Of a stretch of DNA of 64,000 bases, positions 19,853 to 52,395 are shown one piece after another. Made by a program: the position numbers and the translations under genes. Numbering within the stretch: position 1 is the first letter of the stretch; each line of letters opens with the position of its first letter. Origin of the DNA: Sporomusa termitida (GTDB lineage: Bacteria > Bacillota > Negativicutes > Sporomusales > Sporomusaceae). The notes below the pieces were generated by a model. It was not told the origin of the DNA and searched no databases. It saw nothing but the letters and a program-made list of their open reading frames with translations. The stretch covers positions 1 through 64,000 of the forward strand of contig NZ_CP036260.1 in the NCBI RefSeq assembly GCF_007641255.1. The letters run 5' to 3'.

Positions 19853-19909
19853 TGTTCCAGCAATAATAGGCCAACGGTTCAGCGCGTGACATGGAGGAGA
19901 ACATAAGCA

Positions 19910-22002: not shown

Positions 22003-22021
22003 ACAAAGGCAGGGATAGAAT

Positions 22022-22822: not shown

Positions 22823-22836
22823 AAGCAGGTGCTGGC

Positions 22837-24893: not shown

Positions 24894-26109
24894 ATTCAAG
24901 CCGATTCCCTCCGGCCGTATGGGAATGTTGTGGACGCTGGCTTCCATCCGCGATGCCGCTTTATTGGAATTCGGTTGCATGGGGCATATGCTCTACGGCC
25001 GGGTATTTTTGAACCGGGCCGGCGTTATGGACGCCTGCAAACTTTATGCCACCCATCTTGACGAAACTGATGTTGCCCTTGGCGGCACCGGGCGACTGAG
25101 CCGCGCTGTTGCGGATATTGCCTGTAGAGACAAACCGCGTGTCCTGTTTCTCCTGCCCTCCGCTGTGCCGGAGATCATTGGCACGGATATTCCCGCGCTT
25201 TGTCGGGAGCTGCAGCCGGATTACCCGGATATGCGCCTGCTTCCCTTTAGTAATGTCGGTTTTGATAGCGGCCAGCACCGTGGGATACAGGCAACGCTGT
25301 TGCAGCTTGTCAAAATACTACCCCAAGATGTGCCCAAGACGCCGTTGCCGACTTTTAATCTGATCGGTTCCTGCGCCGATTTGTTCCGCTTTCAGGCGGA
25401 CGCCGGCGAGATCGCCCGTATCCTGGCGGGGACTTTCCGGCTAAGGCCGTTGTGCGTCCTGACTTCGGATACGTCGGTGAAGCAAATCGAGCAGCTAGGC
25501 GGGGCGCATGTCAACCTGGTGCTCCGGCGGGAGGGAGTGCCGGCAGCGGAGCAACTGCAACAGCGGTTCGGCACGCCGTATTTGCTGGCCCGGCCTTACG
25601 GCATACAGGGAACGTGCGAATGTCTTGAGCAACTGGCCCAAATCACCGGTATAACGCCCGACCGCAGCTACGTGAACGGGCAGCGGAACGAAGCCCTGCG
25701 GCTGATTTCGCCGGCGCTGCCCTTATTCAGGCAGGTTAGGGAGCACCCGGAGAACAGGCGCTTATCCGTCGGCGGCCATGCCGACGTGGTAAAAGGCATC
25801 CTGTCCTTTGCCTGCGGCGAACTTTCCCTGCCCCAGGGCAGGTGCTGGTGCGACAGCCCAGCTATGGCGTCTGAGGACGTCCCCTATTTTACCGAGGAAC
25901 AGTGGACGCAAGCGGTTCAAAGTCAGGGCAATGGATTGCTCATGGCCAGCGGCGAGGTTCTGGCTTGGGCCGGGCGCAATGCGGAGCTGCAAATTGCGAA
26001 TCCGGATATAAAGTGGCGTTTGAATCCCTACGAACCGCCTTTTGTAGGTTTTCGCGGTGCAGTCCACCTGGTATCACTGTGGATCAATGAGGCGCTGCGG
26101 CAGCAGTAG
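24880..26109 (+). CDS. Nitrogenase component-1-like protein, one-cysteine (NifK/BchB/BchZ-like) subunit
   Basis: 409 residues from ATG 24880 (GGAGG, 8-base spacing), overlapping the previous gene by 14 bases. The N-terminal region aligns with NifK around PSGRMGMLWTLASIRDAALLEFGCMGHM. Only C33 (LEFGCMGHM) of the three P-cluster cysteines is kept: the CQP site reads SGR and the third site reads LLPSAVPEIIGTDI, with serine in place of cysteine. This 3+1 ligand sharing resembles COR (BchY/BchZ), while DPOR uses three cysteines plus an aspartate. C-terminal cysteines (GRCWCDSP) might add another metal site. It is the probable heteromeric partner of the 23592-24893 product and part of the substrate cavity; the substrate is unknown. 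Confidence 0.85.
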   Translation: MGLHRFKPIPSGRMGMLWTLASIRDAALLEFGCMGHMLYGRVFLNRAGVMDACKLYATHLDETDVALGGTGRLSRAVADIACRDKPRVLFLLPSAVPEIIGTDIPALCRELQPDYPDMRLLPFSNVGFDSGQHRGIQATLLQLVKILPQDVPKTPLPTFNLIGSCADLFRFQADAGEIARILAGTFRLRPLCVLTSDTSVKQIEQLGGAHVNLVLRREGVPAAEQLQQRFGTPYLLARPYGIQGTCECLEQLAQITGITPDRSYVNGQRNEALRLISPALPLFRQVREHPENRRLSVGGHADVVKGILSFACGELSLPQGRCWCDSPAMASEDVPYFTEEQWTQAVQSQGNGLLMASGEVLAWAGRNAELQIANPDIKWRLNPYEPPFVGFRGAVHLVSLWINEALRQQ

Positions 26110-31106: not shown

Positions 31107-33254
31107 TTAGAAGGTGACGTTGACCGACATCCAGTAGTTGCGGCCCGAGACCACGTACCCGGTGGTCGTCTGTCCGCTGGTGAAATAGTCGCCGGCGGTG
31201 GTGGTGCTGCTGCCGCTGCCATAGCTGATCACATGCGTGGCGGTAAAATCCTTGTCCGTCAGGTTGTTAATCCCTAAATTGAGCGTCACATCCTTCGATA
31301 CTTTATAAGAACCGCCCAGGTTAAGTAAGGTATAGGATTTGAAGTAACCGCCCAAGGCGTCATGGACCGCTTTATTGGCAGCGGAAAGATTATCGTATTT
31401 TTGGGTGAAGCGTGCGGTCTTGTCGCGGTATTCCGCTTTCAGCCAGGTGGCGGTCCGGTCGTTGAGCCGGTAGTTCAGCCGTGCGTTGGCCATGTGCACC
31501 GGTACATTGGTCAGGCGGGCGCCGTCATCGTTTCCCCCCAGTTGCTCATTGTGGGTGTATGTATAGTTCATATTCAGCGACCAGTCTTCATTCCACAAAG
31601 GAAGGACGGTGCTCAGTTCAAGCCCTTGCGTTTTGGCCTTGCCGACGTTTGTGTAACTTGATGTATTAGCATCAATGCTATAGCCTGAAATTTTATTGGT
31701 ATAGCGGTTGTGAAACATTGTGGCGCTGGAACTGAAGCCGCTATTGTTTTGATAGTGAACGCCCAGTTCGGTATTGGTGCTTTCTTCCGGTTTAAGGTTA
31801 GGATTCCCTATAAGCAGGACGGTTCCCTGACCGGAAACTCCGCTGAGTCCGTCATGCAGCTGCGACAGTTTCGGCGTCTTATAGCCGGTGCTGACGCCGC
31901 CTTTTACCGTCCAGCCTTCCTTGGCCTGCCAGACCAGATAGGTCCGGGGGCTGAAGTGGCCGCTGAACGAATCGGTATGTTCATAGCGTCCGCCGTAGGT
32001 CAGCGATAATGAATCCTTTAGCCGCCATTCATCTTCGGCGAAGAAAGACGTGCTTTCCTGCTTGAATTTGCCGCCGCCGGGGCTCACCATCACCAGTCCG
32101 TCTTCCATCGTCGCATCCCAGTACTGCCCGCCAACGATCAGTTTATGGTTTTCGCCCATGGGAGCGACCAGTTTGGTGTCCAGAATCCAGTTGGAATTTT
32201 TTAATTCGCGCGGAATGCCTATATAGGGCGAACCGGAGGGAACAGCCGATGCCGGGATCAGCCGTCCCTTGGTTTCGGTCTGATTATAGGACAGGCTGGT
32301 AGTCCAGGTGCCGAAGGATACCTTATTTTCACTGCCCAGCGTCACTTTCTGACGCTCATAGCGAAGTTCATCGGCATAACCGCCTGAACTGCCCAGCGTC
32401 CCCAATTGGCCTGCGCTGTTGTCGTATTTCTGTTTGGCCGTCTCGGCGTCCAGCCAGAAGCTGTTATTGTTATCCTGCCGCCAGGTGAAGCGGCCGCCCA
32501 GATTGTAGACATCCCGTTTGACCGGATTGGGTCCCCGTTTCGACAGGTCGATGCCGGTCGAGGAAGATTCAACCAGGGAGGCTTCCCGCCGGAGGATGCT
32601 GCCGCGCAGGGCCAGACCCGTTTTATCTTTGGTCAGCGGCCCACTGGTATAGAACGAGAAACGGGATATATCGCCGAAATCGGTATTTTCCTGGAAGGTA
32701 TGGTCGAGCGTAACGGAGCCGCTCCAATCGTCGGCCACCTTTTTGGTGATAATGTTCACCACGCCTCCCATTGCATCAGACCCGTATAGGGTCGACATCG
32801 GGCCGCGGATGATTTCGATGCGCTCAATGGCCGCCAGCGGCGGCATGAAGCTGGTGTTCATTGCGCCAAAGCCGTTAGGGGTCACGTCGGTGGTCCCGTT
32901 CTGGCGGATGCCGTCCACCATGATCAGAGTATATTCGCTGTCCATGCCGCGGATTCTGATATCCAGGCCGCCGGTTTTTCCAGTGCCGCTAAGCACGTCC
33001 ACCCCTTCCACGTCGCCGATTGCCTCGGCCAGGTCGGAGTAGCCGCGCCGGTTCAGTTCCTCCTTGGTAATTATCGTGATGCTGGCCGGCGCATCGATAA
33101 TATTCTGTTCGAAGCCAGAGGCAGTTACCACCACTTCGTCCAACTGATAGATGATTTCCTCCTCGGCGGCATATGCCGGCAGGCTCAATGCGGCCATAAG
33201 GACGAAACTCAGTAATGTGAGTTTGATTTTTCGCCACTTCTTCCCCGTTTTCAT
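31107..33254 (-). CDS. TonB-dependent outer-membrane receptor, FepA/CirA-like
   Basis: 715 residues from ATG 33254 (AAAGGAG site; longer frames upstream lack a site). Signal peptide MKTGKKWRKIK...SLPAYAAEEE, then a TonB-box-like DEVVVTASGF, a plug (SDLAEAIGDVEGVDVLSGTG, GLDIRIRGMDSEYTLIMVDG, ERIEIIRGPMSTLYGSDAMG, GVVNIITKK) and a barrel containing the FepA/CirA/IrgA signatures GYKTPKLSQLHDGLSGVSGQ and IGNPNLKPEESTNTELGVHY, ending in a terminal phenylalanine (VNVTF). It probably takes up a ferric catecholate or related siderophore. A strong Fur-type palindrome lies about 370 bases upstream. No dedicated periplasmic transporter is next to it. Confidence 0.9.
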   Translation of the reverse strand: MKTGKKWRKIKLTLLSFVLMAALSLPAYAAEEEIIYQLDEVVVTASGFEQNIIDAPASITIITKEELNRRGYSDLAEAIGDVEGVDVLSGTGKTGGLDIRIRGMDSEYTLIMVDGIRQNGTTDVTPNGFGAMNTSFMPPLAAIERIEIIRGPMSTLYGSDAMGGVVNIITKKVADDWSGSVTLDHTFQENTDFGDISRFSFYTSGPLTKDKTGLALRGSILRREASLVESSSTGIDLSKRGPNPVKRDVYNLGGRFTWRQDNNNSFWLDAETAKQKYDNSAGQLGTLGSSGGYADELRYERQKVTLGSENKVSFGTWTTSLSYNQTETKGRLIPASAVPSGSPYIGIPRELKNSNWILDTKLVAPMGENHKLIVGGQYWDATMEDGLVMVSPGGGKFKQESTSFFAEDEWRLKDSLSLTYGGRYEHTDSFSGHFSPRTYLVWQAKEGWTVKGGVSTGYKTPKLSQLHDGLSGVSGQGTVLLIGNPNLKPEESTNTELGVHYQNNSGFSSSATMFHNRYTNKISGYSIDANTSSYTNVGKAKTQGLELSTVLPLWNEDWSLNMNYTYTHNEQLGGNDDGARLTNVPVHMANARLNYRLNDRTATWLKAEYRDKTARFTQKYDNLSAANKAVHDALGGYFKSYTLLNLGGSYKVSKDVTLNLGINNLTDKDFTATHVISYGSGSSTTTAGDYFTSGQTTTGYVVSGRNYWMSVNVTF

Positions 33255-33617
33255 AAGATAACTCCTTTCGTTTCTGCAAGCATCTCCCAGCACGCCAATA
33301 TCCGGCTTTAACCGGACCTGCCGAACCCACTCCTTTTTTCTCTCTCTCAGCGTTGAGTCTGCCTTAAACAAAACAGGGGATTGTTTGCTTTTCTCCATTT
33401 GGCTGATTCCACACTCCTTGAACATGATCTATGCACTGTTTGTCTCACATTCCGGCCGGACCGGGAAGAATAACAGGTTCCCAGCGCTGTGACGGCACTA
33501 AGCAAACAGGAGGCACGCTGAATGTAACACGGTTCGTTGTGTTATATTAATGGTAGTAGAACTGGATAATCCGGCGGCAAAAGCGGGCGGTAAGTTTTAG
33601 AATCACGGCATATAAAA

Positions 33618-38553: not shown

Positions 38554-38608
38554 CGAATTAACGAAAGATTAAGGAAATTCTTATAAAAAAGTAGAATATG
38601 AATCAAAT

Positions 38609-38798
38609 TTGGTACAGGTGCCCGCAAGGGCCTAACAGAAAAGCCGGTTAAAGACCGGCGCGGTCCCGCCACTGTAATGGGGAGCAAAGCCATGAATGCC
38701 ACTGGGAACAAAGGTTTCTGGGAAGGGTTGGTGGAGCGATGATCCAGAGCCAGGAGAACTGCCTGTATGACAATCACCGTTTGACCTGCGAGCGATAG
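38609..38798 (+). ncRNA. Cobalamin (B12) riboswitch 1
   Basis: The cobalamin aptamer layout is clear: GGTACAGGTGCCCGCAAGGG, GCGCGGTCCCGCCACTGTAA, GAATGCCACTGGGA, the B12 box AGCCAGGAGAACTGCCTG (38748-38765) and the partner loop GACCTGCGA. A 13-codon ORF and a terminator follow instead of a gene. Confidence 0.92.
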
Positions 38799-38811
38799 GG
38801 AGGGGATTCCG

Positions 38812-38853
38812 ATGCCAGTTATTGCATTTTATCCGGCAGATTCGCCGGGGTAA
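38812..38853 (+). CDS. 13-codon ORF behind riboswitch 1
   Basis: Reads MPVIAFYPADSPG from ATG 38812, with GGGAGGGG as ribosome site (38798-38805), and stops just before a terminator. It may be a leader peptide or the cut start of a lost gene. I recognise no homologue. Confidence 0.35.
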   Translation: MPVIAFYPADSPG

Positions 38854-38900
38854 AAGAAGCCGCTCTGATGCTATCATCGCAGAGGGGCTTCTTTGTATTT
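38854..38900 (+). terminator. Intrinsic terminator after riboswitch 1
   Basis: AAGAAGCCGCTCTG (38854-38867) pairs with CAGAGGGGCTTCTT (38880-38893), followed by TGTATTTT. It may be the riboswitch's own expression platform or the end of a short transcript. Confidence 0.75.
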
Positions 38901-39077
38901 TGACAAAGCTGGACAACCAGACCAATAATTTATATATACATAGATTAAAACAGACAGCAGCAATAGCCGAAAGCGGATTTTCGTGATTTTTTACGAGGTA
39001 CAAGCTTCAGTAGCTGTTATAGCATAGACGCGATGGGAACGGACCCACAAACATAGAACGAACAATCAGAATCCATG

Positions 39078-39278
39078 CGGGTACAGGTGCCTTTTTAGAA
39101 GGCTTAATAGGGAAGTTTGGTGCAAAACCAACACGGTCCCGCCACTGTAACGGGAAGTCAGTCTAACGAATGCCACTGGAATGCGATAAACATTCTGGGA
39201 AGGCGGACTGATGATGATCTGAAGTCAGGAGAACTGCCTGTGCCGACATCTTCGCTTGACCTGCGATGAACAGGGAGA
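39078..39278 (+). ncRNA. Cobalamin (B12) riboswitch 2
   Basis: GGGTACAGGTGCCTTTTTAG, ACACGGTCCCGCCACTGTAA, GAATGCCACTGGAATG, the B12 box AGTCAGGAGAACTGCCTG (39223-39240) and the loop partner GACCTGCGA are all present. Confidence 0.92.
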
Positions 39279-39283
39279 AGATC

Positions 39284-39318
39284 TTGTCTTGTGTGAGCTT
39301 TATCTTTACACAAGACAA
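39284..39318 (+). promoter_or_regulatory. Hairpin behind riboswitch 2, no T-run
   Basis: TTGTCTTGTGT (39284-39294) pairs perfectly with ACACAAGACAA (39308-39318). No uridine tract follows, but AAAGGAGGG lies 13 bases beyond, so it could take part in translational control. Confidence 0.5.
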
Positions 39319-39365
39319 ATCGTTACCGAAAAAGGAGGGAAGAAGATTACTATCTGGAGTTTGGT

Positions 39366-39398
39366 ATGAAGACTAAGAGGAAAGGAGCATGCCTGTAA
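39366..39398 (+). CDS. 10-codon ORF behind riboswitch 2
   Basis: Reads MKTKRKGACL from ATG 39366 with GGAG 8 bases upstream. It resembles the basic start of a signal peptide. A second ATG (39389) in another frame gives MPVISNMTD, whose MPVI start matches the ORF behind riboswitch 1. These look like remnants of receptor or other B12-regulated genes. Confidence 0.3.
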   Translation: MKTKRKGACL

Positions 39399-39539
39399 TA
39401 AGTAATATGACGGATTGAGCCGGACACGCAGATGTTTTCGCCAGAGGAACGGGAAAAAGCCAGTAGTAAAATGGACAAAAGAGTCATATTATCCTGAAGG
39501 AAACATATGATTACACAGGGGACGACAACAGCATAACGT

Positions 39540-39735
39540 AGGGATAGGTGTCCGCAAGGACTTAATAGGGAAGACCGGTGAAAAGCCGGCGCGGTCCCGC
39601 CACTGTAACGGAGAGCAAGCTTGCGAAATTGCCACTGGGACGTACGTCCTGGGAAGGTGCAAGAGAGCTATGAACCGGAGTCAGGAGAACTGCCTTATCC
39701 AGCAATCGCCATTATACCTGCGAGTGACAGGGAGG
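39540..39735 (+). ncRNA. Cobalamin (B12) riboswitch 3
   Basis: AGGGATAGGTGTCCGCAAGG, GGCGCGGTCCCGCCACTGTA, AATTGCCACTGGGACG, the B12 box AGTCAGGAGAACTGCC (39679-39694) and the loop partner ACCTGCGAG are present. It is the copy nearest the OmpH-like and fusion-receptor genes and presumably controls them. Confidence 0.93.
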
Positions 39736-39742
39736 AGATTAT

Positions 39743-39790
39743 GTGAAAACCAAGACCAATTCGGTCGGTTCGCGTAAGCACTCCCAATAA
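39743..39790 (+). CDS. 15-codon ORF behind riboswitch 3
   Basis: Reads MKTKTNSVGSRKHSQ from GTG 39743 behind GGGAGGAG. It begins MKTK like the ORF behind riboswitch 2. Its last codons lie inside the following terminator stem, so translating it could affect termination. Confidence 0.35.
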   Translation: MKTKTNSVGSRKHSQ

Positions 39791-39803
39791 GGGAGTTTTT
39801 TTA
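39779..39803 (+). terminator. Terminator behind riboswitch 3
   Basis: ACTCCC (39780-39785), loop AATAA, GGGAGT (39791-39796), then TTTTTT. This short stem is a good candidate for the expression platform of riboswitch 3. Confidence 0.7.
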
Positions 39804-39910
39804 TTCGGTATTATTCGCCGGGATTTCGGTTATATGTCAAGTTTTACCGGCGTACAAGCATTGCTTGTACCTGTATGCAAACATTTCAAAGATATTAAGT
39901 TGAGGAAAAA

Positions 39911-40354
39911 ATGAACAGATTATTAGGAATCATTGTTACCGCATTGTTCGTATTCGGACTACTGATGCCCGCGTCGGCGCTGGCCGCTAAGGCTAAAAAC
40001 GAGCAACCCGTCGGCTATGTCGACAGACAGCAGGTCTTTGCCGGTTACCCCGGCATCCAGGACCTCCTGAACCGCATCCAGGCCATGCGGGCCGAGGCCC
40101 AGATAGACTACGACGCCAATGCCAAAGACCTGCCGCCGGCGAAAAAACAGGCGTACAGCGATAAGCTGTCCCGGCAACAGGCTCAGCGGGAAGACGAACT
40201 GATGAAACCCGTGGGCGACAAAATCGAAGCGTCCATTAAGGCCGTCGCTGAGGAAAAGGGCCTGACAGCAGTTCTGGATGCCGCCACTATAGTTTACGGC
40301 GGTACGGACATCACGGCCGACGCTATAGCCAAAGTGAAACAAGCAACACAATAG
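39911..40354 (+). CDS. OmpH/Skp-like periplasmic chaperone
   Basis: 147 residues with a signal peptide (LLGIIVTALFVFGLLMPASALA) and a Skp/OmpH pattern: PVGYVDRQQVFAGYPGIQDL, then a long alpha-helical arm rich in Gln/Ala/Glu, and KGLTAVLDAATIVYGGTDIT at the end, the conserved strand pair of OmpH. Skp holds unfolded outer-membrane proteins in the periplasm. Its position between riboswitch 3 and a gene for an exceptionally large double-barrel outer-membrane protein suggests it is a dedicated chaperone for that product. The start ATG 39911 has a weak GAGG site. Confidence 0.85.
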   Translation: MNRLLGIIVTALFVFGLLMPASALAAKAKNEQPVGYVDRQQVFAGYPGIQDLLNRIQAMRAEAQIDYDANAKDLPPAKKQAYSDKLSRQQAQREDELMKPVGDKIEASIKAVAEEKGLTAVLDAATIVYGGTDITADAIAKVKQATQ

Positions 40355-40431: not shown

Positions 40432-43400
40432 ATGGAAAGAAAAGGAATGATTAAAATTTTAAATCATATCTATAAAGTCGTTTGGAACCGGACCCGCGCC
40501 TGTTGGCAGGTGGTATCCGAACTGGCGAAAAATAACGGCCGGGCGAAGTCGGTCCGCCGGCGCTGTGGCGCGAAAAGCCTGGCGGCGCGTGTCGCCTGCG
40601 TACTGGCGCTAGGGGTAATGGCCTTGCCGGCGGTCGCTTGGGCGGACAATGCTACGGCTGATTACCAATATATAGATCTGGGAGGCTGGAGCAGGGATGC
40701 TTTTCGGAGTGGCAGTTATCAGCCGGCTAATGAAGCTACTCGCTATTATCCTCTGCAGATTAACAGTTCACAATTGAATTATACCTATAATGGCAGCACT
40801 TATAATGTTTTTGGAGCTGCAGGGATAAGAAATTTGCTGAGGGAAATAACTCCCCTAGCGGCTGCCGGCAGTAATCCGGAAAATATGCAGTATAATGCAT
40901 TGGCGGTTAAAATAAACGGCAAGTTGTATTGTACGACGGTTGTCACGGGGGCAACTTCATCTAACTGGAGCACAAAAAGTTTAATAAGTTATAATATTAC
41001 TAATATAATTAATTCCATTGACAAGAATTTGTTAGATGTTGCTACCCAGAATCGTTTGGCGGATATTATGGCTCTTCCGGACGGCAGTGACAAAGAGCAG
41101 CAATTGACGGACTTCGTCAAAGAGTATGCGCCTCCATATGAGTACTGCTTAGTTAAGCTTACCGGCGCCGAATTGGCCAAAATGCAAGGGCTGACAAATC
41201 CACCGGCGACAGATGAGGGGGTTGCGAAGCTGCCTGATTACGAGATAGTAGGAGACAGTTCGTTGCAACTGGAAGACACCTCCAGCTTGTTTCAATTTAC
41301 GCAAACTGTTGCCAATCTAACGCCGGGACAGAAAACTTACGCCTATAATGAAGTAAAAGTCGGCGAGTCCAGCGACAATAGCTGGCGGCCGCTGGACCGG
41401 GTGCTCTATATGGCAAGCGGCTCGGTTCTGGACACGGATTATGCTGTTAATAAGAACTGGGTTATGGACAGTGACGGCAATCTTATTCCTGACAGCAGCG
41501 GCGGCACGATAGACTGGCAGAATGATCAAAGCGTACAACCGCTACCAGCCGATGTAAGAACGGCGATTACAGTAAAAGATTTACGCACCGTTGACAATTC
41601 TGTTATTGATTTGACTTATGCGAATACCTCCGGCGACGATCCGTTGATTAATCATGTTATTACTTATTCTAAGCCTGGTGCAATCAGTAACGGCGAGATC
41701 GGCCATATTGATGGTTATTTTACATATGACCATGTAGAAGGCAAAGTAGTTGATAGAGATCAAAGCACCAGTGAACCCAACCGATATTCTTCCCACAAGA
41801 TTGCCCGCAGCTTGTTTATTGAAAATGCGACGTTAGCGGCAGGCACCACCTTTCGTTTAGGCAATTACAGCATGGATGCCGCGCTGCAGCATGCGCCGGC
41901 TAGCGGAACTGGTAAAATTAGTGATACAGGGTTTGTGACCCCGAACGATTTCAACTCGGCAATGTATTTTAGCACCGGCAATACCGACAGCGTTTATATT
42001 ACTAATGCAACGCAGGCAAACACAGCGGAGGGCAAAACCAATCTGAACCTGCAGTTGGGCTGGGTGCCGGGCTTGGGGTATCTGCCGGCCGGAGAAGCTG
42101 TGCTATACAATAGTCAAAGTCAGGTTAATTTGCCGGTATTATTAGGTATCTTAAACGGCGCCGAAAACTTTAATGTGCAAGCGCAGAAATCTGTTGCCGA
42201 CGGCGTCCTCAGCACCTATGAGATCACGCCGGTTATTGAGCAGACCGATAACTATTTCACCGATCCTGAGGATGCGGCTGCGAAAAAAGGAACCGCCTGG
42301 TGGCTGAAGAGCTATAGCTTTGTTGATACCGGCGAAATGTCGACGACCGGTAAAGCCGTCAGCGACAATTCGATTATCAATAATAATTTGTGGCGCAGCA
42401 GTTACCTGAATATGTTCCGCCGTACCGCTGATTTGCATGCCCGCTATGGCGGCAGCGCCGACCTGCACAGTGCGGCAGGGGCTGACGGCGACGGCCGGGA
42501 AAACGTCTGGGCCCAGGCTTATCACGGTAAAGTCGACGGCAAGAGCCGTTATGGCGGCAGCTTTGACCAAAGCTATAACGGGGTTCAAGTCGGTTACGAC
42601 AAGCTTTTAAATAAAGCATTTTACAACGGCAGAGTTTATACCGGTTTTTATCTGAATAAAATTGACGGCAAGTCGACTACGCAAAGCGGCAGCGGGGAGC
42701 AAGACAGCCTCGGCGGCGGATTGTACGGCGCCTGGGTTGGCGATAAAGGGCACTATCTGGATGCAGGCGTAACCGCGAGCAAACTGAAAAATGAATTCAG
42801 CATGGTTGCCAATCTGGGCGACGGTACGGGCAACAGCGGCATAGTTGACGGTACGTCCCGCACCTGGGGCTACGGAATGGGCCTGCAATACGGTAAGCTC
42901 AATGCTTTGGCGGACAACTGGTGGTGGGAACCGGCCGCCTCCTTCTTCCTGGGGCATGTTGACGCAACCACGTATCAACTCAGCAATCATTTGCGGATTA
43001 ATCAAAGAGGGTATGACAATGCCACCGGCAGGCTGCATCTGCGCTTGGGCAAAGAAATCAACGACAAAGGCACCATCTATGCCGGCGTCAATCTGGCTCA
43101 TGAATTTGCCGGCGAACAGGATATTCATGCCGTGTATGGCTATCAAAACCGATCTATCGCCGCTGCCGGCGGCAAGGATACCTGGTGGGAATTTAATGTC
43201 GGCGGCACGATGAAGATTTCACCGGACGGCAATTTAAATCTTGATTTTGTAAAAACGACCGGCAGCGATATCGGCAGTGACTGGCGCATTGACGGCAAGC
43301 TGGACTTTGCCTGGGGCGGCTTTGGCGGCGGCAAAGGCGTGACCGGCAGCGGGGCCGCAGTGCCTGGCGCTGACAAGGCCCAGACAACGACCGTAGTGAT

Positions 43401-45762
43401 GGGACAGGTGCCGCCGGTTGAGCCGCGACTGCCGGAGCGGCAGGTGACGGCACCAACAGAAGTACCGCCAAGTGTAGCAGAACCCAATCGTCCTGAAACA
43501 GCAGGTAATGCGGAAAATCAAGACAATACGACTGTAAGCTATTCGGCCAGTGAGGCTGCACCGGCAGTGAAAGCAGACACAACTGTGGTCACGCTGCCAA
43601 CCGGCACCGCCAATGAATTTGCCTTTACCCCCGTCACCGTCCAGGCGGCCCGTCCTGACTGGGAAAAGAAGCTGAGCCCCGGCCAGGTATCAGTCATTTA
43701 TCCCGATACCTATAAGGGGGAACAAAAGGATCTGCCGGCGATGCTGGAAGCGGTGCCGGGACTCTATGTGCAGCGCATTACCGGCGCCGGTCACTATACG
43801 GTTGCCCGGGTGCGCGGCGCAACCGGCGCGCAGGTTAAGGTCTTTGTCGACGGGGTGTTGATGAACCTCAACAGCGAAAGCGCGGTCAATCTCTCGGCCA
43901 TCCCGGTCGATAACGTCGAGCGCATCGAAGTCTACCGCGGCTATGTGCCGGCCCGTTTCGGCGGCGCCCCGCTGGGCGGCGTGATCAACATTGTCACCAA
44001 AAAACCGGATCAATTGGGCGGCATGGTGTCGCAAGGCGTGAAATCCTACGGCGGCTATACCGGTAATTATCAGTTTACGGCCCCGGTCGGCAGCGGCAGC
44101 TTGCTGGCAACCTTCCAGCGCGATATCTGGGGCGGCGATTTTGATTTTCATGCCAGTAATCCGGTTCCTGATTCAAACAGATATGCAGAGGCGGATGTTA
44201 AACGGACGAGCAATGGCTACCAAAACAGTAACGGCATGGTGAAGTGGCAGAATGACAACTGGACGGTTAAAGCCGCCTGGAAAAAACTCCATGAGGAGCT
44301 ACCGTTCAGCGTCGGCCAGCCTTTTTCAGCGCTCCCCTTCGATCCGACTAACCCGCAATCGTTAATTTATTTTAACAAGGAAAATCTCGAAAAGGGCTTA
44401 TGGGACAAAACGCAGGATATTGACCAGAAGGAATTCCTGCTGGGCCGCCGGGCTACGGCGGGCAAGCTGGACTGGGGCTGGCAGGTCAGTTATCTGGACA
44501 ACAAAAAGGATTATTATAATACCGGCTATTATAAACGCAAAGCCATTTTAGATGCCATAGGTGTTAGCCCCGGATATATTGCCGGTATGGAAGATCCGCA
44601 ATATCCGGGGACACTGTGGGCCCATTACCATTCAAAAAAATGGGGCTTTAACCTGAATACGGCCTACAAAATGGGCGACAGTCACTTATTGGAATTCAGC
44701 GGCGACGTCAGTCGTGAAACCATGAAGGCCAATGTCAGCGAACAGGATACCCTGAATTTGAATCTTGGTTTAGGCAATAGAAAATACATTGATCAATATA
44801 AAATCCGGGAGTACCACTTCAGTGTGCAGGATACCATTACCCTGAATGAGGCCGGTGATTTCAAGCTGACGCCGGTCGTGCGGGCGGAAAAGGTTGACAT
44901 GGAGACGATGAATGAAGCCGATAAAAAGTGGCGCTGGTCGGCCGGCACCGCCTTGCAAAAGCAGCTCAACGACCATTGGAGCGTTAAGACCAGTTGGGGC
45001 ACCTATAACCGCCATCCGAATTTTTATGAATTGTTTGGCGACGGCGCGACCATTATTCCTAATCCCGGCGCCAACAAAGCGTTTGACGCCGGTTCGCCCG
45101 GCACCTGGGAAAGCGGCACCCAGTTTGACTTTAGTATTAACTGGCAAGGCGAACTGGCCACAGCCGATACCGATACCGTCCTGACCTGGTTCCAGCGCCG
45201 GGCCAAAAATCAGTTCGCGCTGTGGATGCCACAGATGCCGAATGCGCCCAGCACCTATTTCCCCATGGACGAAGCCAAGGTCCACGGCCTCGAACTGACC
45301 CACAATATGAAATGGCAGCGCCTGAGCCTGAACCTGGCCGGCACCTGGCAAAAACCGTGGTATCCGGGCGCCAAGGCCGTGCTGGATATCCAGAGCTCCG
45401 GTCCCAAGACCTCGATTTCCTATACGCCGGAATGGGTGGTAAACGCGCGCCTGGATTACCGGTGGCCGGGTGATAAATTGAATACTTTTATTGAATATAA
45501 TTATATGGACGAGCAGTTTATCGGTCAGACCGAGGATGACGGAGACCCGGATGCCAAAAAAAGTTGGTGGATGGATGGTCTTAGCACCTTTAATGTCGGC
45601 GCTAAATATAAATTCGACAAGAATTGGAAACTGGCCGCCGGCATCAACGATATCTTTGATAAAGGGCCGGAGGTTACCAAAAGATACGGCGCGGCCATCT
45701 ATACTAATAATTATCCCTTAGCCGGCCGCATGTATTACGGAACCTTGGAATATAGTTTCTAA
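40432..45762 (+). CDS. Giant fusion: autotransporter (passenger + barrel) joined to a TonB-dependent receptor
   Basis: 1776 residues in one uninterrupted frame. Residues about 6-45 are an extended signal peptide region (NHIYKVVWNRTRACWQVVSE), followed by a signal peptide ending PAVAWADN. About 71-685 is a passenger without recognisable domain. About 690-961 is an autotransporter barrel (ENVWAQAYHGKVDGKSRYGG, GVQVGYDKLL) that ends with a canonical terminal strand, KLDFAW. A Gly- then Pro-rich linker follows. From about 1075 a complete TonB receptor begins: plug (DLPAMLEAVPGLYVQRI, VRGATGAQVKVFVDGVLMNL, ERIEVYRGYVPARFGGAPLG, GVINIVTKK) and a 22-strand barrel to a terminal phenylalanine (YGTLEYSF). 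The VDGVLMNLNSES and VERIEVYRGYVPARF details resemble BtuB-like or generic receptors. Upstream B12 riboswitches suggest corrinoid uptake. ATG 40432 (AGGA site) is preferred; 40447 and 40414 are alternatives. Confidence 0.85.
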   Translation: MERKGMIKILNHIYKVVWNRTRACWQVVSELAKNNGRAKSVRRRCGAKSLAARVACVLALGVMALPAVAWADNATADYQYIDLGGWSRDAFRSGSYQPANEATRYYPLQINSSQLNYTYNGSTYNVFGAAGIRNLLREITPLAAAGSNPENMQYNALAVKINGKLYCTTVVTGATSSNWSTKSLISYNITNIINSIDKNLLDVATQNRLADIMALPDGSDKEQQLTDFVKEYAPPYEYCLVKLTGAELAKMQGLTNPPATDEGVAKLPDYEIVGDSSLQLEDTSSLFQFTQTVANLTPGQKTYAYNEVKVGESSDNSWRPLDRVLYMASGSVLDTDYAVNKNWVMDSDGNLIPDSSGGTIDWQNDQSVQPLPADVRTAITVKDLRTVDNSVIDLTYANTSGDDPLINHVITYSKPGAISNGEIGHIDGYFTYDHVEGKVVDRDQSTSEPNRYSSHKIARSLFIENATLAAGTTFRLGNYSMDAALQHAPASGTGKISDTGFVTPNDFNSAMYFSTGNTDSVYITNATQANTAEGKTNLNLQLGWVPGLGYLPAGEAVLYNSQSQVNLPVLLGILNGAENFNVQAQKSVADGVLSTYEITPVIEQTDNYFTDPEDAAAKKGTAWWLKSYSFVDTGEMSTTGKAVSDNSIINNNLWRSSYLNMFRRTADLHARYGGSADLHSAAGADGDGRENVWAQAYHGKVDGKSRYGGSFDQSYNGVQVGYDKLLNKAFYNGRVYTGFYLNKIDGKSTTQSGSGEQDSLGGGLYGAWVGDKGHYLDAGVTASKLKNEFSMVANLGDGTGNSGIVDGTSRTWGYGMGLQYGKLNALADNWWWEPAASFFLGHVDATTYQLSNHLRINQRGYDNATGRLHLRLGKEINDKGTIYAGVNLAHEFAGEQDIHAVYGYQNRSIAAAGGKDTWWEFNVGGTMKISPDGNLNLDFVKTTGSDIGSDWRIDGKLDFAWGGFGGGKGVTGSGAAVPGADKAQTTTVVMGQVPPVEPRLPERQVTAPTEVPPSVAEPNRPETAGNAENQDNTTVSYSASEAAPAVKADTTVVTLPTGTANEFAFTPVTVQAARPDWEKKLSPGQVSVIYPDTYKGEQKDLPAMLEAVPGLYVQRITGAGHYTVARVRGATGAQVKVFVDGVLMNLNSESAVNLSAIPVDNVERIEVYRGYVPARFGGAPLGGVINIVTKKPDQLGGMVSQGVKSYGGYTGNYQFTAPVGSGSLLATFQRDIWGGDFDFHASNPVPDSNRYAEADVKRTSNGYQNSNGMVKWQNDNWTVKAAWKKLHEELPFSVGQPFSALPFDPTNPQSLIYFNKENLEKGLWDKTQDIDQKEFLLGRRATAGKLDWGWQVSYLDNKKDYYNTGYYKRKAILDAIGVSPGYIAGMEDPQYPGTLWAHYHSKKWGFNLNTAYKMGDSHLLEFSGDVSRETMKANVSEQDTLNLNLGLGNRKYIDQYKIREYHFSVQDTITLNEAGDFKLTPVVRAEKVDMETMNEADKKWRWSAGTALQKQLNDHWSVKTSWGTYNRHPNFYELFGDGATIIPNPGANKAFDAGSPGTWESGTQFDFSINWQGELATADTDTVLTWFQRRAKNQFALWMPQMPNAPSTYFPMDEAKVHGLELTHNMKWQRLSLNLAGTWQKPWYPGAKAVLDIQSSGPKTSISYTPEWVVNARLDYRWPGDKLNTFIEYNYMDEQFIGQTEDDGDPDAKKSWWMDGLSTFNVGAKYKFDKNWKLAAGINDIFDKGPEVTKRYGAAIYTNNYPLAGRMYYGTLEYSF

Positions 45763-45896: not shown

Positions 45897-47231
45897 ATGT
45901 CAGAGCAAAGAGCTTTACTGCAAGAATCGGTATTGGCGGCAGGTGTAATGAACAATTACACATCGGGAAAGCTTTACGGCTGCATCAGTCAGGTCGATAG
46001 TGCCGGAACCGTACATGCGGGCGTGGTAAAAACGTTACCGGGAGGCAACTATTTTGAGGGGCATGATGCGCGCGTTCTCAATTTTCTGAAGGGTTCGGAA
46101 TACAAAGCGTTGGTAGTAGATTATACTTATGGTACCAGTTCTTTATACGGTATTTTTGATCCGGCTGCTAATGGAGTATGGGGAACGCCGGTAGTTAGGA
46201 CAAATACCAATTGGGACATTAATAATCCCTATAGCATTGTCACGAACGGTAACGATATGTTCCTCATGGGCTATGACGGCGTAGACATTATTAAGGTTGA
46301 TCTGACAACGTTCAATGCGGCCAGCGGCAATCCGTTTTTCACGTATACACCACTAGCGGGTAAACAAGGCCATGGCGTGGATATGGATGCTGTTGAAATT
46401 GATGGAACACTTTATTTGGCCGCATTGTTTATCAATGCTGAAGGTTATTCTAATTATGGCAATTCACAGCTTGTACTTGTCGATGCAGCTACCGGTGATT
46501 TGTTTGAAACTATTGATCTGAATGCCAACGCTAATTCAATAGCTATTGCCGCGGATAAATTTGCCTATGTGACCAGCTTCGGGGGAGTACAACAGCCTGG
46601 CGGCAATGCTACTTCCCAATTAGAGGTAGTAGATCTTTCTATTCCAGAGGTAACACAAACAATTGGCATGGTTACTCCTGTTACTGACGGTGATTATGTC
46701 GATATTGCCTTAGTTGGTGCCAATGCCTATGTATTGACGGCCAATTTTGATGCTAACTACCAGTTCTATACTTATCGCTTGGTGAAAACTACGCAAGCGT
46801 TTTTAAAAGGTGGTAGTTTTGGTACAGTACCAGATGTCGACTATAGCACCTACACACAAAACCTAATACCCTCCGGTGCCACTTGGCTGTTGGCTTACGA
46901 CGGAATCGTACTGTGGTTTGTGCGGGCGACAGAGATTTATACGATTGATACTTCCGTTAATGTGTCCAGCGCCGCGTTGACTAAACGCGCGGATGCTACA
47001 CTCTATAATGCTACTACTAATCCCCAAGGTTTAGGTATTGACGATCCGCATGAGGTTTATGGACAGCTGAATACCGCCGCCGTGGTTATTCCGGCTGCTA
47101 GCGCAGCTCCGCGTGCCTTCGCCAGAGGCGCTTCCCATACTAAACATGCCAAAGTGATGTTACCGCCTGAAGAGCTTGAGAAATTCAAAGCAGCAGCAGT
47201 GCAAGCGGCAGCAGCGCAAGAAAAAAAATAG
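45897..47231 (+). CDS. Propeller-like protein of unknown function
   Basis: 444 residues from ATG 45897 (AAAGGTGG site). I recognise no named domain. The protein is built of repeating beta-rich segments with the rhythm of a beta-propeller (YKALVVDYTYGTSSLYGIFD, NDMFLMGYDGVDIIKVDLTT, QLVLVDAATGDLFETIDLNA, FAYVTSFGGVQQPGGNATSQ, NAYVLTANFDANYQFYTYRL) and ends in an alanine- and glutamate-rich helical tail (MLPPEELEKFKAAAVQAAAA). No signal peptide is present, so it would be cytoplasmic unless exported by another route. It follows the fusion-receptor gene by 134 bases and opens a row of unfamiliar same-strand genes. Confidence 0.6.
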   Translation: MSEQRALLQESVLAAGVMNNYTSGKLYGCISQVDSAGTVHAGVVKTLPGGNYFEGHDARVLNFLKGSEYKALVVDYTYGTSSLYGIFDPAANGVWGTPVVRTNTNWDINNPYSIVTNGNDMFLMGYDGVDIIKVDLTTFNAASGNPFFTYTPLAGKQGHGVDMDAVEIDGTLYLAALFINAEGYSNYGNSQLVLVDAATGDLFETIDLNANANSIAIAADKFAYVTSFGGVQQPGGNATSQLEVVDLSIPEVTQTIGMVTPVTDGDYVDIALVGANAYVLTANFDANYQFYTYRLVKTTQAFLKGGSFGTVPDVDYSTYTQNLIPSGATWLLAYDGIVLWFVRATEIYTIDTSVNVSSAALTKRADATLYNATTNPQGLGIDDPHEVYGQLNTAAVVIPAASAAPRAFARGASHTKHAKVMLPPEELEKFKAAAVQAAAAQEKK

Positions 47232-47379
47232 TTTGCTAATGTAAGATTGTAGCTGAATCCGCATCGTTTATACTCAGGCACTTACGGAACGGTGCGGATT
47301 CCTTTATTATGATTTTGCCGGAGAATTGGCGAGGATTTGCGGCAAGAACATAATAAAAGCACAATAAGAGGTGGAGGCT

Positions 47380-47997
47380 ATGAACCAAGTACAAGCTGCG
47401 ACCATAACCAAGGAGGATCTGGTTATGCTGGTGCCGCTGTTTTCTCCTAATCCCAGACTGCAGGAGGTGAAAAAAACTCTTGCATTGACGCAGTCGGTGC
47501 AACAATGCCGGCCCTTTAACCTGATTAAGGAACCAGTGGCCGATCTGGCTGCGCTCCAGGCGGCCGTAGCCAAACACCGGCCCCAGATCGTACATATCGC
47601 CGCTGAATTTATGGAGAAAGGCCGGGTGTATTTTGGTACGGTCCGCAGCCGCAACAGATCCTGGCCGATGTCCGAGGTTTTAAGCAGCATCGCCGAGGCC
47701 GGCGCCAATACGGAACTGATATATTTCAACGGCCCCCTGAATAAAGATTTTATGCTTACTGAAGATGATAACATAAATTTTGTTATCGGTGCGGATAAAA
47801 AACTATGTACTGCCGCGGTGCGGCAAAAATTCACGGCCTTGTTTTATTTGTTCGTCGGGTTAGGCAATTCGGTCGGCATAGCGTATAGGCAAGCTTGGCA
47901 GCAACTGCCTGTAGAACTGCAGGATATTCGCCCCTTGGCGATAGCTTTACGCTATCGGCTATCCCTTAATCCGGCCGAAGTAGGAATCCATAAGTGA
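47380..47997 (+). CDS. CHAT-like (caspase-fold) protein with degenerate active site
   Basis: 205 residues from ATG 47380 (GAGGTGGAGG). The sequence follows the outline of small CHAT domains: an N-terminal strand and helix (LVPLFSPNPRLQEVKKTLAL), the segment DLAALQAAVAKHRPQIVHIA where active enzymes have VHxxGHG but here it is IVHIAAEF, a SEVLSSIAEAGANTELIYF block, and AVRQKFTALFYLFVGLGNSV with GIAYRQAW, like the C-terminal FxxxFY...G.sv..A motif. The catalytic His is not at its expected place and no obvious catalytic Cys follows, so it is probably a non-enzymatic adaptor. The call rests on pattern alone and should be treated as tentative. Confidence 0.45.
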   Translation: MNQVQAATITKEDLVMLVPLFSPNPRLQEVKKTLALTQSVQQCRPFNLIKEPVADLAALQAAVAKHRPQIVHIAAEFMEKGRVYFGTVRSRNRSWPMSEVLSSIAEAGANTELIYFNGPLNKDFMLTEDDNINFVIGADKKLCTAAVRQKFTALFYLFVGLGNSVGIAYRQAWQQLPVELQDIRPLAIALRYRLSLNPAEVGIHK

Positions 47998-48071
47998 GGT
48001 TCCTTTTTCGTAAATTGACTTCCTAGTTGTTTGCTTATAGTACACATATTCATAAAGAGAGTGTGCCGACA

Positions 48072-49691
48072 ATGAAAGAAGAAAATAGTGGAAAAATTGA
48101 AATTGATCTGATCCCCTTTATAGCCAAGAGCATCGCCCAGAATCCGGCAGCCCGGCGCGAACTGGACAGCATTTACTCCGATGAAACAATCCCCATTGAG
48201 CGGGCGCTTTCGCCCAAGCTGGCGGGTTACAACCGCTATTACCGGGAATGCGATGTCTTGACGGAAACCTACTGTCACAAAGCCACGGCCTTTATTCTGA
48301 CCGCTTTGAACGAGCAAGAGTCCGGCAAACCGGCGCTGGCGGCCCTGAGCCAATTGCTGCAAAAATGCTGGCGGCAGTTTTACGCCTATGTAGCGGCCAG
48401 CGGTCCCGCCGTCCCCTTTGCCCCGTTCTGGAGCAAGCTGGCGAAAAAGGGTAGAAAGCTGACGGAATGTGAGATAGGCAATTTGTCCGGTCTGCCGCCG
48501 GGAATTTCCCCGAGGGATGTAACTACCAGCGATACATTAAACACGGATTTTCCAATATTCTGGTTTCTGGTCAATCTGTTCGGTAAAACCATTAGCGTTA
48601 GCGAGCAGGATGAAAACTTTCATAAGCACATAGTATTTTACCAGGAAGCCCAGGAACGGATGCACAGAAGCCCGGCCCGGACGCCAGCTCTGACAGAGCC
48701 GCAAAAAAAGCTGGCAGCGGCGCTTTGGGGATATATTAAAGAACAAGTAAAGGGCATTCCAATTAACTTGGACGAATATTTCTGTACGCAAGAATACAAA
48801 CAAAAGACTCCCGTACTACCCTTCAAACAGGAAATTTTCGGCGACCTGCCGATCCAGGCTATTAAGCATGTCAATATTAGCCGCCAAGAACTGAGAACGA
48901 CCATTGATCTCTTGGCAGCCTCGCTGCCGGCAGAGACAACCCTGACTGCCGAACTGCAACAAACCGCTCTAGATTATTTTAGGCAAGTACTGCTCATACG
49001 CGCCTGCGCTCACTACTATGAAACGCTGCGCAGCTTTGCCCTGGAACAGGGCCGGCTGGCTGACAAAGCCTCATCCCGGCCGCTGCAGGTAGCCAAGCTG
49101 AAAGAGCAACTGGCACAGGCGCGGCAAAAAATCTGGGAACTGGAAGCCCTGCCGGTAAAAGCGAATCAAAATTCGTCTTTAGAGCCATTGTTGGCGCAAA
49201 AGCAACAGGCTTTGAATGAATTACAGCTCAGGCTGGAAAAAAGTGAAAGCACGTCCCAAAAAGAGATAGCCCGGCTGCAGGCCAGGCTGGATGAGGAACA
49301 GGAAACCAATCAGGTGCTGACCCGGCTGCTGGCAGCGGCAGAAGAACAGCCGTCAAACGAAGAAGACCTTAGCCCGGACTTATTGGCCAAAATAATGCTG
49401 CTCCGAGTAGTCATCCTTGGCGGACGAACAGACTGGCAGCAACGGCTAAAAGCCAAATATCCGAACTTTAGATTGATTTCACCCGAAACTGTAAAATTTG
49501 ATCTGGCTATACTCGGCGCCGCCGATGTGATCGTGATCAACCGGCGGTTTTTAGGCCACAGCTTATTTTACCGAGCAGTGCATTATGCCGGCAAATACAA
49601 TAAAGAAGTGGTTTATCTTAATAACAATAATGAGAAACATCTGCTACAGGCACTGTGCCGAAAATGTGGTGCGGGTACAGGGTCAGGCTGA
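48072..49691 (+). CDS. Large coiled-coil protein with C-terminal DUF2325-like domain
   Basis: 539 residues from ATG 48072. The N-terminal 330 residues are mainly helical with no recognised domain; residues about 340-440 form a coiled coil (VAKLKEQLAQARQKIWELEA, LLAQKQQALNELQLRLEKSE, EIARLQARLDEEQETNQVL). The last 90 residues (RVVILGGRTDWQQRLKAKYP, LAILGAADVIVINRRFLGHS, YAGKYNKEVVYLNNNNEKHL) match DUF2325, a small Rossmann-like domain of unknown function common in Firmicutes. The stop lies inside a REP-like hairpin at 49680-49727. It is probably co-expressed with the CHAT-like gene 75 bases upstream. Confidence 0.6.
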   Translation: MKEENSGKIEIDLIPFIAKSIAQNPAARRELDSIYSDETIPIERALSPKLAGYNRYYRECDVLTETYCHKATAFILTALNEQESGKPALAALSQLLQKCWRQFYAYVAASGPAVPFAPFWSKLAKKGRKLTECEIGNLSGLPPGISPRDVTTSDTLNTDFPIFWFLVNLFGKTISVSEQDENFHKHIVFYQEAQERMHRSPARTPALTEPQKKLAAALWGYIKEQVKGIPINLDEYFCTQEYKQKTPVLPFKQEIFGDLPIQAIKHVNISRQELRTTIDLLAASLPAETTLTAELQQTALDYFRQVLLIRACAHYYETLRSFALEQGRLADKASSRPLQVAKLKEQLAQARQKIWELEALPVKANQNSSLEPLLAQKQQALNELQLRLEKSESTSQKEIARLQARLDEEQETNQVLTRLLAAAEEQPSNEEDLSPDLLAKIMLLRVVILGGRTDWQQRLKAKYPNFRLISPETVKFDLAILGAADVIVINRRFLGHSLFYRAVHYAGKYNKEVVYLNNNNEKHLLQALCRKCGAGTGSG

Positions 49692-50176: not shown

Positions 50177-50194
50177 GGGAGAATGAGGATTGTC

Positions 50195-51094
50195 ATGAAT
50201 ACACATGTCATTTTGCCTGACCGCAGGGAAGTGGGGACGGGTTGGCTGCCGCCCCTGCCCGACTTACGCGACTATACCGAACACCATCCCTACCTGCAGG
50301 AAACCATCAAACGCCTGAGAGTCGACGATACCAAGCCGCTGCCGGATAAAACCGATTTGCGCGAATGGTGCAGCACACCCGTGCCGGAACAGGGCAAGCT
50401 GGGGGCCTGCACCGCCCATGCGGCGGCGGCCATTATCGAGTACTTTCAGAACCGGGCCTTTGGCAAACATTTTACTGCCTCGCGGCTATTCATATACAAA
50501 AATGCCCGCAACCTCCAGGGCGTGACCGAGGATCAGGGGGCCTTCATCCGGGATACGATGGGGGCTTTGGCGTTGTGCGGCGTACCGCCGGAAAAATATT
50601 GGCCTTATACCGACAAGGACCCTGACTTTAATAAAGAGCCAACTTCGTTCGTCTACGCAGTGGCGGACAATTACGAGGCGCTGCAGTATTTCTGCCACGA
50701 TCCCGCCGGCAACAATACAGCTCCGGCCGATGTCTTGCGCAGCGTAAAAAAGTATCTGGCGGCCGGTGTGCCTTCCATGTTCGGCTTTTACGGCTTCGCT
50801 TCGTTTACCGATACCGATGTTCCCGGCAACATTCCCGGTCCTGGACCGGATGAAAAGGCTAGTTGGAGCCACGCGGTAGCGACCTTTGGTTATGACGATA
50901 CGTTGAAAATTAAAAACACCCGCTATGACCGGGAAACCACCGGGGCGCTCCTAATCCGCAACTCCTGGGGCCCCACCTGGGGTCAGGCGGGGTACGGCTG
51001 GCTGCCTTATGAATATGTTTTAAATAAACTGGCCACCGATTTCTGGTCACTGCTGAATATGGAATGGATAGAAACCAATCATTTCGGCTTATAA
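50195..51094 (+). CDS. Papain-like C1A cysteine peptidase
   Basis: 299 residues from ATG 50195 (GGGAGAATGAGG upstream). The C1A catalytic set is complete: Q66 of the oxyanion hole and C72 in PVPEQGKLGACTAHAAAAII, H226 in SWSHAVATFGYDD, and N256 in IRNSWGPTWGQAGYGWLPYE. There is no signal peptide and only a short N-terminal lead (LPDRREVGTGWLPPLPDLRD), so it is a cytoplasmic peptidase without a classical propeptide. It is the only clear catalytic member of this gene row. A 207-base partial copy lies at 55331-55537. Its partners (CHAT-like, DUF2325 and unknown proteins) suggest a proteolytic stress or defence role, which is inference. Confidence 0.9.
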   Translation: MNTHVILPDRREVGTGWLPPLPDLRDYTEHHPYLQETIKRLRVDDTKPLPDKTDLREWCSTPVPEQGKLGACTAHAAAAIIEYFQNRAFGKHFTASRLFIYKNARNLQGVTEDQGAFIRDTMGALALCGVPPEKYWPYTDKDPDFNKEPTSFVYAVADNYEALQYFCHDPAGNNTAPADVLRSVKKYLAAGVPSMFGFYGFASFTDTDVPGNIPGPGPDEKASWSHAVATFGYDDTLKIKNTRYDRETTGALLIRNSWGPTWGQAGYGWLPYEYVLNKLATDFWSLLNMEWIETNHFGL

Positions 51095-51279
51095 AAGGAG
51101 CCGATACCGGCCCGGCGGCCACCGGGCGATTTGATATTCGAGCTTTGTATGCTGATCATGCAGTTGGCTCGCGATAATAACTACGGGAGTGATAACGCCT
51201 TTTTCAAACTTGATGAGAAAAAATAAAAATGCCGGCGGCAGAAGATACGGATTGCCGTCAGGCAGCGGGATGGATAAAC

Positions 51280-52395
51280 ATGGGCTTGATTGACTGGTTT
51301 GCTAATTTGTTTGTAAAAGAATCCAAGCATTACGTTTATGCGCCGGTAACGTCCGACGTAGAGAAGATCGAATTCAAAGAGGGGCAGCATTATTTTCGCC
51401 TGCGCCTGGCGGAGATGTTCCTGAAAAACGACCGGAAACTCTTCCGCAAATACGTGCCGGTGGTCTCCTCGGTCGTCAGTGTGCAATTCGGCGCCAATGC
51501 CGCCCAGGAGCTGCCCAGCGTGGCCGGCCCGCTGGCCTTGAATCTGAATGAAAGCTCCCTGGGCAAGGGGGTGCAATTGAATTATTCCCTGACCAACCTG
51601 GTGCCCTATCGCGGCGGCAATGTGTCAATCAGCGCCGCCTTATTGGCCTATGTCAATAAAGACTACTTTCCGTCCTTTCTTACCCTGGCCAACAGCATTT
51701 CCAGCCTGCTGACCATTGGCCAGTTGTCTGCCACGCTCAAAGTGGTCGACAGTGCGGTCAGCGCTTTATCGGAACTCTTAGCCGGCGGCGATAAAGACAT
51801 CCATCTGGTCTATCACAATGAACACGCCGGCACCGATAATTTGGGCGGAAGTTCTCTGCACAACGGCTATTTTGCCGTCATTGGCGCTGACGGCGGCAAA
51901 TTCGACATGAACAAACTGATTGTGAAAAACTCGCAGCTTTATTTCGGCGATGATCTCCAAGCGGCCAAGCCGCTGACCGGCTACGATTATATGCTGTTCA
52001 GCGTGGAAGCGGCGCTATACCGGGATGATTTCCGCTATTTTGCTGAATACAACAGTTTGCTGTACGCGGCGCTTGAAAAAGGCATGACGAACAGAGGCGA
52101 GGGTGATGCCGTGATCCGGGCCGGGATGCTGGCCATATTCAAATCAGATGATTTGACCTATGTCGATAAAACACGAGTGGCGGCCGCACTCAAAGCGGAG
52201 TATGAGGAACGGCTTTCCCTGCTGGATAAGCTAAAAAGTCCGCTGATTAAAGATGAGCATTGGTTACATGACAGGGTACTGGCGATCAACCCGGAAGCAA
52301 CCGGCAAGAAGATTGCCCCCGTGCTGGCCAATGATCAATTGGATGATGCCGCCATCGCCGATACCATCGTAACCATGGTTGTAAAGGGTGGATAG
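51280..52395 (+). CDS. Uncharacterised protein downstream of the C1A peptidase
   Basis: 371 residues from ATG 51280 (GGGATGG site). I do not recognise the family. It starts MGLIDWFANLFVKESKHYVY, contains a beta-rich central part (VVSSVVSVQFGANAAQELPS, LNLNESSLGKGVQLNYSLTN), a hydrophobic helical stretch (SFLTLANSISSLLTIGQLSA), then a mixed domain (GSSLHNGYFAVIGADGGKFD, YDYMLFSVEAALYRDDFRYF) and a helical C-terminus. There is no signal peptide. It follows the peptidase gene by 185 bases on the same strand and is the last gene of the row, so it may be a partner or substrate of the peptidase. Confidence 0.6.
   Translation: MGLIDWFANLFVKESKHYVYAPVTSDVEKIEFKEGQHYFRLRLAEMFLKNDRKLFRKYVPVVSSVVSVQFGANAAQELPSVAGPLALNLNESSLGKGVQLNYSLTNLVPYRGGNVSISAALLAYVNKDYFPSFLTLANSISSLLTIGQLSATLKVVDSAVSALSELLAGGDKDIHLVYHNEHAGTDNLGGSSLHNGYFAVIGADGGKFDMNKLIVKNSQLYFGDDLQAAKPLTGYDYMLFSVEAALYRDDFRYFAEYNSLLYAALEKGMTNRGEGDAVIRAGMLAIFKSDDLTYVDKTRVAAALKAEYEERLSLLDKLKSPLIKDEHWLHDRVLAINPEATGKKIAPVLANDQLDDAAIADTIVTMVVKGG

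Follow-up and report, generated by a model that had tools for sequence, protein, structure and literature searches.

Type Va autotransporters (ATs) such as EspP and BrkA combine an extended signal peptide region (ESPR), a passenger, an alpha-helix, and a 12-strand barrel that ends the protein in an aromatic terminal strand. A 2021 survey of multi-barrel proteins by Solan et al. reportedly stressed fusions with 8-stranded barrels. In Escherichia coli, BtuB is a TonB-dependent receptor (TBDT) with a TonB box and a plug. In Bacteroides, a BtuB-like TBDT forms a complex with a BtuG-type seven-bladed propeller (PMC10404256; PMC6143338). Outer membrane proteins with more than one beta-barrel per chain are a known kind (PMC8592465).

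The 64,000-nucleotide stretch of Sporomusa termitida DNA analyzed here (the window) contains a gene at positions 40432 to 45762 that joins an AT to a TBDT in a single stop-free frame of 1,776 amino acids (coordinates are on the plus strand unless marked otherwise). The predicted product shares with EspP and BrkA the ESPR, passenger, alpha-helix, 12-strand barrel, and aromatic terminal strand, but its AT barrel is internal, with a linker and another complete receptor behind it. With E. coli BtuB it shares the predicted fold, a plug, and, putatively, a TonB box (a TonB-box-like motif is present); unlike BtuB, it is joined to an autotransporter, and its TBDT scores below the NCBIfam BtuB equivalog cutoff (98.8 versus 599.7 bits). 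As in the Bacteroides BtuB-BtuG complex, the BtuB-like TBDT is accompanied by a BtuG-type propeller, and the fused loci are in addition under predicted cobalamin riboswitches. They differ from the Bacteroides system in the N-terminal AT, in a propeller that mostly lacks a signal peptide, and in low sequence identity. The AT-TBDT fusion belongs to the known multi-barrel kind; no description of it was found in open-access papers.

Domain organization and predicted structure

Pfam searches of the 1,776-residue protein returned four domains in order, all exceeding the curated cutoffs: ESPR (PF13018, residues 11 to 58, positions 40462 to 40605; E value, 4.7e-14), Autotransporter barrel (PF03797, residues 692 to 938; 1.6e-30), Plug (PF07715, residues 1081 to 1184; 1.6e-15), and TonB receptor barrel (PF00593, residues 1323 to 1739; 1.8e-28). 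Together with the open frame, these domains confirm the proposal of an initial annotation that one polypeptide carries two outer membrane barrels. The true translation start may lie downstream of 40432, at the ATG of 40447 or at a TTG directly behind that ATG, since the ESPR motif starts only at about residue 10. In phmmer searches against the PDB, the middle of the protein matched BrkA and EspP and the C-terminal part matched CirA and PfeA. The N-terminal signal, passenger, and PF03797 barrel of a type Va AT were all present, but the barrel does not end the protein, with about 815 residues following it. The plug and large C-terminal barrel with a terminal aromatic residue that define a TBDT were also present, and at least two barrels per chain, as in multi-barrel outer membrane proteins, were found both by Pfam and in the predicted model.

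The predicted passenger (residues 75 to 635, positions 40654 to 42336) contains a conserved WRPMD motif that was kept in 12 relatives of the long size class. Profile searches matched the passenger to no Pfam family and no PDB entry, and a fused BtuG was rejected as its identity after a negative profile comparison with the BtuG-like neighbor. The AT alpha-helix and 12-strand barrel (residues 636 to 962, positions 42337 to 43317), assigned from PF03797, the BrkA and EspP matches, and the model, end in DGKLDFAW. The sequence KLDFAW had been described as a canonical aromatic terminal strand; it is indeed the last AT strand but is not canonical, as Lys replaces the usual Gly of the beta-signal. Relatives mostly carried a canonical AT terminal strand (e.g., NGGFNWTW and NAGMSWRF). 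The terminal residue was aromatic in 28 of 28 pattern-matched internal AT barrels, with a 29th fitting by eye, and the canonical Gly was kept in 22 of the 28.

A disordered, Pro-rich linker (residues 963 to 1064, positions 43318 to 43623) leads to PVTVQA (residues 1067 to 1072, positions 43630 to 43647), the window form of a TonB-box-like family motif, P-[VLI]-[TV]-V-E-A, that was conserved ahead of the plug in alignments and is a putative TonB box. The plug (residues 1081 to 1199, positions 43672 to 44028) and a barrel ending in GTLEYSF (positions 44029 to 45759) complete the TBDT. No hydrophobic signal-like segment was present in the window linker (maximum hydropathy of 0.79 versus 2.78 for the signal peptide), so the TBDT half would be exportable only within the fused chain. 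AT barrels end, and TBDTs begin, on the periplasmic side of the outer membrane, so the topology of the linker is consistent.

Structure prediction, proposed with the initial annotation as a check, returned two barrels and a disordered linker. The AlphaFold2 model, covering residues 600 to 1776 and built from 14 sequences (mean pLDDT, 73), contained the AT helix, 12 AT strands (residues 689 to 962), the plug, and a large barrel with some 22 strands, with disorder from residue 963 to about residue 1081 (pLDDT, 25 to 37). The domains and the model support the further claim that an internal AT barrel would have to be inserted as well as the C-terminal one. In Foldseek comparisons of the TBDT part, BtuB was among the best matches (target-normalized TM-score, 0.80 to 0.84; Bacteroides BtuB1, 0.81), and the model gives the TBDT half a BtuB-like fold. 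At the sequence level, siderophore receptors scored equally well against this half.

Distribution, origin, and selection

Intact fusions were found in at least 19 genomes, that of the window included, among about 250 Negativicutes genomes searched, and broken or contig-edge fusions were found in 3 further Negativicutes genomes. Scoring was limited to the top two matches in each genome, which makes these counts lower bounds; the fused loci were retrieved and their reading frames checked. The initial annotation would have been undone by the absence of the fusion from all other genomes or by a stop or frameshift between the barrels; the same architecture recurred across Negativicutes, and chance, misassembly, and an interruption of this kind are all excluded by open fused frames that occur independently in many genomes. 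Fused genes were spread over about 11 families, with carriers including Sporomusa acidovorans, Pelosinus propionicus, and a Phascolarctobacterium MAG, and identity to the window protein dropped to about 30% among fused relatives. The fusions fell into two size classes (about 1,415 to 1,560 and 1,680 to 1,850 amino acids) that differ in passenger length. The window genome carries three fused genes; the other two lie on the main contig, with identities of 89% and about 50%. No AT-TBDT fusion was found outside Negativicutes in a set of 299 genomes from the phylum, and a search for close plasmid relatives gave weak, unrelated matches only. A candidate fusion in Veillonella ratti was rejected as two neighboring genes; this locus (L091:6246-11993, plus strand) holds an AT gene, a cobalamin riboswitch, and a TBDT in a row, unfused. 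At another locus (L071:3-10109, minus strand), a TBDT adjoins a giant autotransporter, also unfused.

In the AT-barrel tree, fused barrels grouped together, apart from ordinary ATs, and the two apparently AT-only rows inside the fused group came from one frameshifted and one contig-edge fusion. In the tree of TBDT halves, 26 of 27 fused sequences formed one clade, the exception (L068) falling among single TBDTs. The simplest reading of these sequence relationships is that the fusion had one origin and later losses. ESPR signals are normally a feature of type V secretion, and the ESPR-type signal peptide of one single-barrel TBDT (L074:7631-10501, minus strand) fits the loss of an AT part.

The most constrained parts of the fused protein were the AT barrel (dN/dS, 0.03 to 0.17) and the plug (0.02 to 0.18); values were higher in the TBDT barrel (0.11 to 0.27), the linker (0.27 to 0.56), and the passenger (about 0.4). 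Both barrels are under purifying selection. The passenger and the TBDT barrel diverge faster, which would be expected of parts exposed at the surface. In a comparison of the window gene with a chromosomal copy (L038:8543-13837, minus strand), DNA identity was 98.6% in the AT barrel and 87% in the passenger and TBDT barrel, and fourfold sites showed the same mosaic pattern, which suggests gene conversion.

Cobalamin riboswitches and neighboring genes

The most telling features flank the fused gene, upstream at 38599 to 40354 and downstream from 45897 onward. Three predicted cobalamin riboswitches (RF00174) lie at 38599 to 38780, 39068 to 39255, and 39529 to 39711 (cmscan, 100.8, 104.9, and 106.3 bits, respectively; gathering score, 31.5). 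Behind the third, a pattern scan located an intrinsic terminator-like hairpin with a T run at 39780 to 39803 (ACTCCC-AATA-AGGGAGT; TTTTTTATT). A review of tandem riboswitches gives 26 AdoCbl doublets and, in its available text, makes no mention of an AdoCbl triplet (PMC9481103). A predicted cobalamin riboswitch was present on the same strand within 5 kb upstream of every fused gene examined (27/27), with at least two at 20 and at least three at 13 of these genes. The whole 5.3-Mb genome contained 37 cobalamin riboswitches above the cutoff, so that the expectation for any 5 kb of one strand is about 0.02. Between the riboswitches and the fused gene, positions 39911 to 40354 are predicted to encode an OmpH/Skp-like periplasmic chaperone with a signal peptide (PF03938; 1e-14), relatives of which were found upstream of 11 of the 26 other fused genes.

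Downstream, a gene at 45897 to 47231 (ATG at 45897, after ggaaaggtgg) was annotated from profile and model matches as a BtuG-like beta-propeller. A gene of this type lay within 170 bp of the fused gene in 24 of 27 cases, including the window. Significant matches of the propeller profile in the PDB were to BtuG-type "YncE family" chains only (8ptd/8ptf/8blw_B). In comparisons with the propeller model, BtuG1 and BtuG2 with cyanocobalamin ranked first, and 9 of the best 11 Z-scores belonged to BtuG entries, plus the related 3dsm; other propellers scored closely behind, so the fold alone is no proof of BtuG identity. Taken with the riboswitches at all 27 fused genes and the BtuB-like fold of the modeled TBDT, this neighbor makes the putative corrinoid link of the fused receptor well supported, in agreement with the ligand first suggested for it.

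By inspection, the window propeller, which starts MSEQRALL, has neither a signal peptide nor a surface lipoprotein signal, and signal peptides were likewise absent from the propellers at most fused loci. Because the propeller is mostly signal-less, there is no obvious case for a BtuBG-style surface complex. Propellers with a signal peptide were seen in Synergistaceae and at two Negativicutes loci (L042 and the fused L068), and signal-less propellers also occurred at single-barrel loci (L043, L066, L072, L073, and L074). The signal-less propeller was accordingly rejected as a strict companion of double barrels, with exceptions in both directions. Signal-less BtuG-like propellers had a conserved basic C-terminal tail, and those of Synergistaceae had a signal peptide and a CTERM-like anchor.

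Further downstream are genes for a CHAT-like, cytoplasmic-looking conserved protein (cluster c7; 47371 to 47997), 97% identical at the chromosomal paralogous locus; a DUF2325-like protein (cluster c18; 48027 to 49691; sub-threshold Pfam match), conserved at three other loci; a papain-like C1 peptidase without a signal peptide (50183 to 51094; PF00112, 6.8e-10), with 77 to 93% identity at other fused loci; and a conserved protein of cluster c8 (51229 to 52395), with 75 to 84% identity at other loci. The CHAT domain was detected on c19, a cluster related to c7. By inspection, the operons hold strongly conserved signal-less papain-like peptidase, c8, CHAT-like, and subtilase proteins. Elsewhere in the window, positions 18773 to 26109 contain FecBCDE/BtuFCD-type ABC transporter genes and, after them, genes for a nitrogenase-like (CfbC/NifH-like) iron protein and two NifE/BchB-like proteins; this cluster is flanked by TBDTs at 14467 to 16746 and 31107 to 33425, both on the minus strand.

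Candidate functions of the fused receptor

The fused gene probably encodes a single-chain corrinoid receptor in which the passenger is displayed beside a BtuB-type importer. Sec would export the chain, and two separate barrels would enter the outer membrane. The N-terminal AT barrel would place the passenger on the surface, and the C-terminal BtuB-type TonB-dependent transporter would import corrinoids; an uncleaved, flexible periplasmic linker of about 80 to 140 residues would run from the last AT strand to the putative TonB box. When corrinoid is low, transcription would pass the stacked riboswitches, and the receptor, the Skp-like chaperone, and the BtuG-like propeller would be made. Fusion would set a 1:1 ratio and hold the passenger at the mouth of the importer. 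The passenger may itself capture the ligand, as the initial annotation suggested.

Alternatively, but with rather low probability, the chain may be a delivery device whose linker is cleaved in the periplasm, leaving the AT and the B12 receptor to act separately and the fusion to fix only co-export and stoichiometry. Disorder, variable length, and weak constraint would make the linker protease accessible, and broken or split fusion copies exist (L060 and L055). Against such cleavage, the aligned linkers showed no conserved cleavage motif, and related B12 receptors work as separate genes (L042, L073, and L088), so that fusion is unneeded for export.

Also rather improbable is a passenger that acts as an ordinary adhesin or surface shield, the product of an ancient accidental fusion kept by drift and without a role in corrinoid uptake. 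Such a passenger would be consistent with the lack of a match to a known ligand-binding family in Pfam or the PDB and with its standing as the fastest-evolving part of the fused protein. An accident is harder to reconcile with the age of the fusion and its retention in about 11 families, with an AT barrel among the most constrained parts, and with predicted corrinoid regulation at every fused locus.

A role of the internal AT barrel in serving the operon, by helping to display or export the signal-less BtuG-like propeller, is very improbable. Propellers are usually signal-less beside two-barrel receptors (also at L081 and L086), and the single-barrel receptors of Synergistaceae have propellers bearing signal peptides; however, the single-barrel Negativicutes loci named above also have signal-less propellers, the propeller of the fused L068 has a signal peptide, and AT barrels cannot move proteins across the inner membrane. 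A misassembly or missed stop joining two genes drew no supporting evidence and can practically be dismissed, given independent intact fused frames in at least 19 genomes.

A single-chain corrinoid receptor with a displayed passenger would bring a secretion device and an energized importer together in a single molecule. It points to a strategy of B12 acquisition in diderm Firmicutes of which open-access papers yielded no description. It would also provide a widespread natural test case for BAM, in which an internal barrel with its own beta-signal folds alongside a larger second barrel.

Pairs of a TBDT and a propeller with cobalamin riboswitches were also found in Synergistaceae, a deltaproteobacterial MAG, and Sphingomonas, and the TBDTs of the latter two carried an extra small terminal barrel domain (PF13505; weak to moderate matches). 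A tentative and rather unlikely generalization is that two-barrel architectures have arisen repeatedly among corrinoid receptors (as AT-TBDT in Negativicutes and as a TBDT with a small OMP_b-brl barrel in the deltaproteobacterial MAG and Sphingomonas), with the second pore serving a B12 capture step or the surface route of the signal-less propeller. Another apparent two-barrel fusion was noted in paralogous proteins of 1,596 and 1,620 amino acids from one genome (L041:591-5381 and 9851-14713, both minus strand; G000:C1, about 4356590 to 4370712), in which an N-terminal TBDT is followed by about 750 residues with a weak Porin_5 match; no cobalamin riboswitch was present near this pair. At L081:5598-8753 and L086:7740-11327 (both plus strand), TBDTs of the B12-linked family carry an additional OMP_b-brl-like barrel at the C terminus and adjoin signal-less BtuG-like propellers.
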